Positions 46,873 to 50,492 of a DNA stretch of 64,000 nt are shown piece by piece. The notes beneath the pieces were generated by a model. It searched no databases, was not told the origin of the DNA, and worked only from the letters and a program-made list of their open reading frames with translations. A program made the translations under genes and the position numbers. Position 1 is the first letter of the stretch. Each line of letters starts with the position of its first letter. Origin of the DNA: Fodinibius sp. Rm-B-1B1-1 (GTDB lineage: Bacteria; Bacteroidota; Rhodothermia; Balneolales; Balneolaceae); contig NZ_JBCFYD010000001.1 of assembly GCF_038594945.1 (NCBI RefSeq), positions 124,001-188,000 on the forward strand, read 5' to 3'.

Positions 46873-48045
46873 GTGCCCTGGCTTTTACGTATGACACTCC
46901 TGGTAGCACTAATCATGCTGCCGGCAATACTTTACCTATCATTTCGCTATTACGCAACCTTTAAATCCCATCGTATAAAACGCGCCGCCTTCCCCTTGGT
47001 ACTACTCTCATTTTATACTTATCCCGTAGCCGCAGTGATCGACTATTACCTAACCGGCTCCATCGACCTGCTCGACTACCCCCAACCGTTGGCCTACTGG
47101 TTCTGGCTCGGACTCGTCTTTGTATTTCAACTCGTAACCTGGGTCCTAATCACCGACCTTATCAAAGTTATCAGCGACGTTTTTTCTGGGAATAAAAATA
47201 TAGTCAGCCAGCGATACCCTCAAATACTCGTGGCTCTACTTGCAGGGGTATTCCTATTTACTTCCCAAAAAACCTACCTCCACACAACCCAGGTTAAAGC
47301 TGAGCATATCTCCATTCCGATAGAAAACCTCCCCGCATCACTCGAAGGATTCAAAATTGCACACATCACCGATATCCAGGGCGATGAATACACCGGCCGA
47401 GATGAGATTCAAAATTACATTGACAAACTCAGTGTCCAACAACCTGATCTGATCATCTTTACCGGCGACCTGATCTCATACGGAACCGATTTTATCGAAA
47501 TGTCTGCACAGGAATTGGGGAAAGCCAAAGCAACGTACAGTACCATTGGCGTCGTTGGAGATCACGATTACTGGGCCGGACTCAATAACGTAGAACCAGC
47601 CCTTAAAAAGCAGGATATCCCACTATTGCAAAATCAAAATCTAACCATTTCCATTGACAGTGCTACCAAGATCACCGTCACCGGCGTAACCGAAGTCTAT
47701 AGTAAAAGTTCGAACCCTGATACGGTTGATTCGCTTGCCGCCTCAAGTCCAAACAGTGCCCTGAAAATTTTTGCCTCCCACCAAGTAAAAGATCATTTAA
47801 TAGATGCTGCGAAGCAACACAACTATAACCTGATGTTAGCCGGACACACCCACGGCGGACAAATTCACGTTCCCTTCTTTGGGATGAACTTCTCAGCCTC
47901 TGAAGAAGAAACCAAATACGTACAGGGACTTTACCACGAGCAGGGCATTCCCATAAACGTCAACAATGGCCTCGGCTTTACCCTGGCACCCATCCGCTAC
48001 GAAGCACCGCCAAATATTTCAGTAATAACATTAGAGGCTAAATAA
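46873..48045 (+). CDS. Membrane-anchored metallophosphoesterase (YkuE/YaeI-like)
   Basis: 390 residues with a GTG start. Four hydrophobic segments fill the first about 140 residues; the phosphoesterase domain starts at about 155. Motif II (FTGDLIS) and motif IV/V (LAGHTHGGQ) are standard. Two metal-binding positions differ from the textbook family: motif I reads TDIQGDE where D-x-H is usual, and motif III reads GDHDYW where GNHD is usual. It may still be active. Related proteins cleave lipid pyrophosphates at the membrane. Confidence 0.82.
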   Translation: MPWLLRMTLLVALIMLPAILYLSFRYYATFKSHRIKRAAFPLVLLSFYTYPVAAVIDYYLTGSIDLLDYPQPLAYWFWLGLVFVFQLVTWVLITDLIKVISDVFSGNKNIVSQRYPQILVALLAGVFLFTSQKTYLHTTQVKAEHISIPIENLPASLEGFKIAHITDIQGDEYTGRDEIQNYIDKLSVQQPDLIIFTGDLISYGTDFIEMSAQELGKAKATYSTIGVVGDHDYWAGLNNVEPALKKQDIPLLQNQNLTISIDSATKITVTGVTEVYSKSSNPDTVDSLAASSPNSALKIFASHQVKDHLIDAAKQHNYNLMLAGHTHGGQIHVPFFGMNFSASEEETKYVQGLYHEQGIPINVNNGLGFTLAPIRYEAPPNISVITLEAK

Positions 48046-48395
48046 AACCCTCTAATTGGTTGCCCGCCAGAGAGAAATGGCTAACATAAATCACTCAACA
48101 GCTTTACAAAGTTAACACTATCTTAAGGAGAGAATTATCCTGTCCTCTTAGTCATATGCTACAAGACATTCATATGTCATGGATACCGACATTGGTATGT
48201 CATACTTCCTGACATTAGTATGTCTTTGGTTACGACATTGTAATGTCATAGGGTCGGACATTATGATGTCATACATTCCGACATCACAATGTCGTACATT
48301 TTGAGCTTAATAGATCGGATCGCCCCTGCCCTAAAACAAATTAGATAAACCAGTTAAACGTATTTTAGGAAGGTAATAATATAGATGTGGAGCAC
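48046..48395. other. 350-base gene-free gap between convergent genes
   Basis: No open frame of note, no RNA gene recognised. The first about 115 bases are unremarkable. The middle 129 bases are the 23-bp-period dyad array (listed separately). The last about 100 bases contain nothing I recognise. Both flanking genes end here, so the array lies at two 3' ends and not in a promoter region. Confidence 0.8.
48165..48293. repeat. Six-copy GACAT-N4-ATGTC dyad array, exact 23-bp period
   Basis: Perfect copies begin at 48165, 48188, 48211, 48234, 48257 and 48280. All twelve five-base half-sites are identical; the four-base centres differ (TCAT, TGGT, TAGT, TGTA, TATG, CACA). The nine-base spacers share only a loose ATAC...TCC theme. 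In phase at 48303-48316 lies GAGCT-TAAT-AGATC, a possible decayed seventh unit. A period of 23 is not a multiple of 3, so it is not coding. Invariant half-sites with variable centres and fixed helical phasing suggest an array of dimer-binding sites. Confidence 0.9.
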
Positions 48396-50492
48396 TTACG
48401 ACCTGCTCAGCAGATCCGTCATTTGTTGAGGATCGTGCGTTGGTAACTCACAGGCATAGTTTTGGCAGACATAAGCGGTGGGCTTGCCATCCTTCATCCC
48501 GAAATCAGCTAAGTAAGGTACCAACGAATTTATCATACCATCCTCGGAATCGTTAAAGATAACCACAGTCCGGGGCAAAAATCGACTTCGCAAAATATCC
48601 ACAAGCTCGTCCGTTTGTGAATCACCAAGCTTTCCTGCAAGAATAACCTCCTGGCTGTTACCATACATGAAATCGACTGCTTGCAGGGCAACCCCAAAAC
48701 TCGTTGGTGCTTGTTTAATACTATTACCAAATAACTTTAAGGCATCCTCGGCCATCTGCTCCCACTCCGTACGTCCCGTAATACGCCCCAATCGCAGCAA
48801 ATTCATTACTGCAATAGAATTACCCGAAGGCATCGCCCCATCATAAATTTCTTTCTTTCGGCCCAATAATTCTTCAGCCGTTTCCGAAGTAAAATAGAAT
48901 CCGCCATCGTCGGCATCCCAAAACTCATCAATAAACTGTTCATTAAGCAAAATAGCTTGCTCTAAATATTCAGTATCCAACGTGGCCTCATAGAGCTCCA
49001 GCAATCCCCATATCACAAATGCATAGTCATCGGCATGACCGTTGATCGCTACATCCCCATTCCGGTAACGATGCATCAAACGGCCGTTATCTGTTAGCAT
49101 CTCATCGGCAATAAAGGACCAACATTCTTCAGCCTGTTGCAGATAATCCTCATTACCCAAAACAGCCCCGGCCTTGGCCAGCGCCGCGATCATCAACCCA
49201 TTCCAATCGGTAAGAATTTTATCATCCAACAGGGGATGCACCCGATCTTGCCGAACCTCTAACAATTTTTTCTTGATTGACTTCACTTCAGATTGCACCG
49301 CCTCCACATCCATGTCACGCTCATCGGCAAGCGCTTGTATAGGCTTTTGCAGATGCAGGATATTTTTGCCCGTCCGTTGCCCCGACGCTTCATCACGATA
49401 ATTACCCTCCTCAGTCATATTAAAAACCCCAATCGCCAATTCTGCTTCGGTCATTGACAGCACTTCTCGAACCTCATCAATACTCCACACATAAAACTTG
49501 CCTTCTTCGCCCTCACTGTCGGCGTCTTCAGCGGAATAAAATCCCCCGTCTTTATCCCGCATTTTCCGTGTCAAATACTCACAAACTTCATCCACCGTCT
49601 GCTTAAACAGCTCATTACCCGTCAACTGCCAACCTTCGGTATAAGCCATAAGCATCATCGCTTGATCGTAGAGCATCTTCTCAAAATGAGGAACGAGCCA
49701 CTCACGATCGGTAGAATAGCGATGGAATCCACCACCCACTTGGTCAAACAGTCCACCCATACGCATTTTCGTGAGCGTTTGCTCTACCATCGGCAACGCC
49801 TTTGAATCGGGATTTTGATCCGCATAGCGAAGCAGAAGCATCAAATTATGGGGACTGGGAAACTTGGGTGAAGACCCAAAGCCACCGTATTGGTTATCGA
49901 ACTGTTGCTCGTATTGGTTATAGGCCTCGTCTAACAGCGTGTCATCAAGATCATCCGTAATCTCAAAATCGTTCGACTTTTGGAAAGCCGTAACAATTTC
50001 ATCGGTAGAATTGATGATTTTATCTCGCTTATTCTCCCAAAGCTGCGACATCCAGGGAATAAGCTCTCGCATGCCCGGCCGCCCCTGTCGACCAACTTTG
50101 GGTATATAAGTAGCAGCATAGAACGGCTTTTTATCCGGCGTCAAAAATACATTGAGCGGCCATCCCCCACTACCCGTCAGCATTTGACAAACCAACATGT
50201 ACGTATTATCAATATCAGGGCGCTCTTCGCGATCTACCTTAATGTTCACAAACGCTCGGTTCATCAATTCAGCAATCTGTTCATCCTCGAACGACTCATG
50301 CGCCATTACATGACACCAGTGACAGGTAGCATAGCCAATAGAAACGAGTACTGGCTTATCCTCTTTTTCGGCCTTTTGGAAAGCTTCCTCTCCCCACGGA
50401 TACCAATCCACCGGATTATCGGCATGTTGCAACAAGTACGGACTGGATTCATTTGCTAATCGGTTTTGACTGTGCTGAGAAGAATCTGCCAT
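48396..50492 (-). CDS. Thioredoxin-domain protein of the YyaL/DUF255 family
   Basis: 698 residues. The N-terminal thioredoxin-like DUF255 domain has [23 protein letters not shown] and the redox-type [18 protein letters not shown] (CxxC near 56-59). The rest is an (α/α)6 barrel as in N-acylglucosamine 2-epimerases ([38 protein letters not shown]). The family is conserved but its reaction is not settled. It starts 3 bases after mgsA, so the two are co-transcribed. Confidence 0.9.

Follow-up and report, generated by a model that had tools for sequence, protein, structure and literature searches.

The gap between two convergent genes of Fodinibius sp. Rm-B-1B1-1 contained six exact copies of the palindrome GACAT-N4-ATGTC on a 23-bp grid, in an array that is probably bound by a protein and kept by selection. 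As an explanation of the whole we lean towards a row of dimer-bound sites that would form a nucleoprotein patch. The anatomy of the sites, the selection acting on them, their location and their co-occurrence with an HU-family gene at one locus could be read from the genomes compared. The element is compact and clean; a two-fold site is predicted for it, and one candidate protein can be named. Our literature search found no description of such arrays, and to our knowledge, in line with the original prediction, no such element has been described so far.

Array anatomy and occurrence in the genus

In the window (the whole stretch of 64,000 nucleotides analysed), exact matches started at 48165, 48188, 48211, 48234, 48257 and 48280, a step of 23 bp (approximately 2.2 helical turns), reproducing all six palindromes originally reported. 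Chance expectation was 0.03 matches in the whole window, and 0 of 100 shuffled windows reached six. All 12 half-sites were identical, whereas the 4-base centres and 9-bp spacers varied, as had also been predicted, and the per-unit consensus was [AC]N-GACAT-N4-ATGTC-N[GT]. Strands and coordinates of the flanking genes agreed with the predicted position between two converging 3' ends, with 120 bp from the metallophosphoesterase stop to the array start and 103 bp from the array end to the 3' end of the DUF255/thioredoxin gene:

46873..48045, + strand: metallophosphoesterase gene (PF00149) upstream, converging on the array, given for context
48163..48295, no strand: whole array with extended half-sites, six palindromic units, period 23 bp
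48165..48178, no strand: unit 1, GACATTCATATGTC
48188..48201, no strand: unit 2, GACATTGGTATGTC
48211..48224, no strand: unit 3, GACATTAGTATGTC
48234..48247, no strand: unit 4, GACATTGTAATGTC
48257..48270, no strand: unit 5, GACATTATGATGTC
48280..48293, no strand: unit 6, GACATCACAATGTC
48396..50492, - strand: gene for a DUF255/thioredoxin-domain protein (PF03190) downstream, converging on the array, given for context

Scanning the source genome (G000; 3.41 Mb, 6 contigs) for the exact palindrome returned 22 matches, all within five clusters on an exact 23-bp grid and none outside, while a backward-read control pattern had 0 matches. The clusters were:

C1:172165: array of six units (the window array)
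C1:283970: array of five units
C1:715903: array of five units
C3:13342: array of five units and a decayed sixth
C2:449809: two-unit remnant, one unit exact

The original prediction had proposed looking for the array in related genomes. One further species, G005, carried a five-unit array between P-type ATPase and alcohol dehydrogenase genes (L011) and another on its contig C6, also of five units but more degenerate. The other 10 genus genomes had no array and just one to three isolated palindrome matches each. Every isolated match inspected fell within a reading frame, and these were therefore regarded as chance. When 245 class genomes, 233 of them from outside the genus, were scanned with a degenerate two-unit pattern (≤2 mismatches), G000 and G005 alone matched; exact patterns found no further carriers among 92 family or 394 phylum genomes. 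An any-period scan for tandem palindrome arrays in approximately 1 Mb of genus DNA, covering the stretches up to the runs of N in L283, recovered GACAT arrays alone. Such patchy occurrence (2 of 12 genus species), which counts against the bound-array reading, makes the function dispensable. The metallophosphoesterase-DUF255 neighbour pair was conserved in all 12 genus genomes, with an array at the pair in G000 only. Among the 11 relatives, the gap of this convergent pair measured 13-254 bp in 10; in the eleventh, the partner gene could first be aligned at a distance of 708 bp. In most, the orthologous intergenic spots were 13-43 bp long. As the pair was kept without an array in all 11, the window array was most likely gained at this locus. 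A dispersed TGTCATCTCGACCGCAGGGAGAGATCT-like repeat occupied the same convergent gap in three relatives (G002, G008 and G009; L062, L063 and L065).

Constraint on the half-sites and placement of the arrays

Across five arrays, departures from the column majority occurred at 1 of 260 arm positions, compared with 97 of 293 other positions, a disparity that marks the arms as under strong purifying selection and the centres and spacers as drifting. Two positions outside each arm, at -2, all but one of 56 half-sites (55/56) had A or C. The rule applied to 12/12 of the outermost half-sites, which face no neighbour, and to 10/10 half-sites of the second G005 array, which was held out and unused in finding it. 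Complementarity across the dyad between the two -2 bases of a unit was not above expectation, and there was no excess at positions -4 to -1 and +5, +6, bar a trivial 13 versus 10.9 at -3. A constrained -2 base without cross-dyad pairing suggests that each half-site is read alone in duplex DNA, the signature expected of a protein dimer. Units were also asymmetric, the first centre base (position 6, in the left half) being T in 24 of 28, for which a simple dimer model does not account. Spacers of one array resembled each other more than they did those of other arrays (permutation p = 0.0002), pointing to an old local tandem duplication of each; the arrays seem to have arisen by such long-past events, followed by drift except at contacts. 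The original prediction of no recent tandem duplication stood in so far as the spacers had diverged, but an older duplication history was still visible.

Five of six arrays lay in convergent gaps, compared with 16% of gaps of at least 150 bp (P = 6e-4), and the second G005 array, found later, was also convergent (6/7). By cluster, four of the five in G000 lay between convergent genes and one between co-oriented genes. Convergent placement argues against promoter control and supports the earlier view that the array is not an ordinary promoter operator. Along with the 1:97 distribution of changes and the held-out -2 base, it also lends good support to the claim that a dimeric DNA-binding protein has its sites here, under selection. 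Sampled GC skew put the G000 origin at about C1 0.92-1.05 Mb and its terminus at about C2 0.90-1.10 Mb. No clustering of arrays occurred at either (C1 0.17, 0.28 and 0.72 Mb, C2 0.45 Mb, and C3). The dnaA gene (C1:306247) was situated away from the GC-skew switch marking the origin (C1 ~0.92-1.05 Mb). Array surroundings contained no shared flanks or mobile-element ends, and array neighbours included no replication initiator.

We propose that the array may offer several docking sites in a row to a dimeric protein that binds DNA sequence-specifically. Each unit would be bound by one dimer, and neighbouring dimers, separated by 23 bp (approximately 70 degrees of rotation), would be in contact and build a short ramp that winds helically. 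With about five units (5 x 23 bp = 115 bp, ~11 turns) the ramp would come full circle, and this would account for arrays usually having 5-6 units. Lying between transcription units, such a cooperative nucleoprotein patch would serve to anchor, insulate or structure the chromosome, with no part in promoter control. Binding and cooperativity, like the identity of the protein and the function of the arrays, we infer from the patterns described here. A cooperative architectural role, as opposed to titration, is a plausible reading that we hold with some reserve.

A candidate protein and arrays outside the genus

One locus had an array in both species (on C3 in G000, on C6 in G005), in the order TIG/IPT lipoprotein gene > array < HU-family gene < DUF4112, with recG beyond the DUF4112 gene. 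In one of the best registers, the arms of the two arrays were identical at 43/50 positions and the spacers at 10/36, which is chance level; flanking proteins shared 41-52% identity. Under the original prediction, absence of the array from close relatives would make a bound-site model fail. That absence was largely what we found, yet the shared array kept its arms and changed its spacers, as a bound-site model predicts. The HU-family gene (L008:4497-5195, minus strand) lies 49 bp from the shared array and its product (232 aa) contains HU-DNA_bdg (PF14848, E 8e-27) and DUF4469 (PF14734, E 6e-18) domains. We read the recG-DUF4112 locus in four array-less relatives (G004, G006, G009 and G010), none of which had GACAT arrays anywhere in the genome; G008, whose contig breaks inside typA, fell outside this comparison. 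The HU, TIG and AraC genes were all absent from the locus in G004, G009 and G010, and G006 kept the TIG and AraC genes, with HU gene and array absent. HU gene and array were found together there in 2/2 carriers versus 0/4 array-less relatives. At the position of the G000 HU/array locus, G006 had a reading frame of 2126 aa (L245:1775-8155) in which 351 bp are duplicated in tandem at 99% identity.

Outside the genus, we searched 84,980 species genomes with the GACAT half-site at the given spacing. Two exact units stood side by side at 36 loci, in Bacteroidales and one Oceanospirillum; since both half-site and spacing were fixed in the search, identity of the half-site across phyla is partly a selection effect. 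Some Bacteroidales genomes held several such loci each. Bacteroidales arrays (Bacteroides nordii, Parabacteroides and MAGs) resembled ours in half-site, 23-bp period and number of units (4-9), but their half-sites were less strict, they mostly lacked the A/C rule at -2 and they lay in all gene orientations. Arrays of Oceanospirillum and bin_63 obeyed the -2 rule. The 23-bp grid continued with other half-sites in L059:673-824, L038:3266-3578 and a provirus (L144:3179-3353), and a grid that outlasts a change of half-site suggests a general class defined by its period, with the half-site secondary. Grid-keeping switches included GACAT to GACTA, GACAC..GGGTC and GGGAA..ATGTC, and CTCGCATATGCGAG beside GACAY units.

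The MAGs Go_Prim_bin_146 and STF2_138 contained dispersed elements, in many copies per genome, with 5-6 GACAT palindromes in longer inverted repeats (e.g. tttctttgtttcaaactcgt ... acgagtttgaaacaaagaaag) whose centres flip between ACCC and GGGT and whose hairpin potential is strong:

L025, L026, L029, L031, L033, L037, L041, L046: Go_Prim_bin_146/STF2_138 loci
L048-L051, L053, L056: Go_Prim_bin_146/STF2_138 loci, continued

On at least one strand, arrays of these two MAGs folded 2.7 to 6.3 SD better than arms-fixed shuffles, in which arms were kept and centres and spacers permuted, whereas Parabacteroides arrays folded equally well or worse than such shuffles. The inverted-repeat setting and strong folding make the MAG arrays hairpin-like, and the Bacteroidales arrays therefore appear mixed and partly of a different, hairpin-like class. 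Parabacteroides arrays (L027, L028, L030 and L060) were framed by AAAAC ... GTTTT, resembling a bidirectional terminator frame. In Bacteroides nordii (G462), a single 14-mer, GACATGTGCATGTC (complement GACATGCACATGTC), stood isolated at many loci and is possibly a separate regulon motif:

C90:24279, C91:45379, C107:92267, C112:7988 and 86604: examples of GACATGTGCATGTC/GACATGCACATGTC sites in G462
C113:152414, C114:125200, C116:20647: further examples in G462

Of the 34 Bacteroidales arrays, four were flanked by a gene for an HU-HIG protein (PF18291), each with its 5' end towards the array: L029, L032 of Bacteroides nordii, L039 and L060. The remaining 133 genes at these loci included one such gene, which makes the enrichment modest (Fisher p = 0.04), and it was noticed post hoc. 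No other Pfam family was as common as HU-HIG in the 47 flanking proteins scanned. HU-HIG genes are, however, numerous in Bacteroidales, which counts against the link. The shared locus, the joint absence in four relatives and the HU-HIG flanks make the HU-family protein (PF14848 and PF14734) our lead candidate as binder of the arrays, put forward tentatively. Its support comes from a single shared locus and from this small enrichment seen post hoc, and other G000 arrays have no adjoining HU gene. In addition, HU/IHF-type kinks, as in IHF, are 9 bp apart, a spacing that fits an odd-spaced palindrome and not the even-spaced one of the array, which counts against the candidate. An AlphaFold model of the HU protein, built from two sequences, had a pLDDT of 44, too low to be of use. 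The HU superfamily is known mostly for unspecific bending, and we know of no account of sequence-reading by, or the biological role of, HU-HIG and HU-DNA_bdg proteins; if they read arrays, a sequence-specific array-binding mode would be added to the superfamily. More speculatively, palindrome arrays on a 23-bp grid might constitute an undescribed chromosomal element read by HU-superfamily proteins (HU-DNA_bdg/HU-HIG), with the grid set by the protein, the half-site re-tunable between lineages, and a use as architectural or self-marking sites in Bacteroidota-like bacteria.

Alternative explanations and known systems

Arrays could instead be a dispersed repeat family (REP/BIME- or MITE-like) spreading among intergenic spots with no host function. 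Their patchiness across species would fit, as would array loci that differ between the two species, except one, and a conserved gene pair that is array-less in 11/11 relatives, three of them holding another dispersed repeat there. Against this, the copies have arms alone in common. Their spacers, centres and flanks are unalignable, which excludes recent copying, and old copies would have drifted in their arms as well, yet a single arm change was set against 97 elsewhere. We consider such a repeat family unlikely. REP/BIME elements in particular were rejected, as G000 had no match to a Y1/RAYT-type transposase (Y1_Tnp) and flanks and spacers of the copies could not be aligned.

Equally, a decoy or incompatibility array might titrate the DNA-binding protein of an invading element (iteron-like) or a host regulator. 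Tandem sites a few turns apart are the form of plasmid iterons and of sopC, and positions away from promoters, several arrays per genome and a patchy distribution, as for defence traits, are all compatible with titration. It is nevertheless improbable: 2.9 million viral contigs lacked such arrays save for one Bacteroidales provirus, and we know of no plasmid or phage protein that binds GACATN4ATGTC. A viral source was likewise rejected, the same contigs otherwise giving chance pairs only. Plasmid iterons (~22 bp) were rejected as well, given palindromic array sites and the lack of a replication initiator among the neighbours. The originally suggested role in partition did not hold up for a ParB-parS centromere, because each of the 12 genus genomes had one full ParB_N gene and only two had arrays; ParB is therefore unlikely to need these sites. 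A CRISPR array (repeats of at least 21 nt) was dismissed, since only two 5-mers per unit were constant and no contiguous repeat longer than 5 bases occurred in all units.

The units might also act as hairpins in a shared 3' UTR, or as DNA cruciforms, serving as a bidirectional terminator or RNA-stability element. The convergent 3' position suits this reading, folding of the arrays far beats dinucleotide shuffles, and the two Bacteroidales MAGs carry comparable, strongly folding arrays within longer inverted repeats. However, genus arrays folded no better than arms-fixed shuffles (z -1.8 to +1.7), so that their stability is due to the arms alone and an RNA-hairpin role is not supported. Pairing did not extend beyond the 5 bp of the arms on either side, the constrained -2 base (A/C) matched its cross-dyad partner less often than expected, and array ends had no U-tract except for one weak terminator-like match at unit 6. 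The orthologous 13-43 bp spots in most relatives also manage without an array. We regard hairpins, one of the options raised originally, as very unlikely in the genus. An Rfam scan had no match for the array and found only an unrelated cobalamin riboswitch (RF00174), at L029:2083-2269 (+), where a palindrome array and an HU-HIG gene lie within a few hundred bases of it.

The dimer-bound array that we favour can be set beside several known systems. Plasmid centromeres of the ParB-parS type, such as sopC of F with tandem 43-bp repeats that each hold an inverted repeat, are likewise rows of palindromes at fixed spacing, with a dimer at each site nucleating a larger complex; our arrays differ in site and period, and are dispersed on the chromosome and not near the origin. 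Iterons of RK2, R6K and pPS10 comprise approximately five sites of 17-22 bp, ~22-23 bp apart, but they adjoin a rep gene and are direct repeats without a palindrome, whereas the arrays are palindromes at chromosomal 3' intergenic spots. BIME/REP elements of enterobacteria are also palindromic units clustered in 3' intergenic DNA, often where genes converge, in contrast to arrays that are few, share just 10 of 23 bases between units, keep an exact period and have no RAYT/Y1. Spaced palindromic motif pairs of unknown function, such as CCTAC(N)19TAGGT of D. alkenivorans, are likewise pairs of pentamers that are intergenic and frequent between convergent genes, and are described as dispersed single pairs (PMC5217627). 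The arrays, by contrast, stand on an exact grid.
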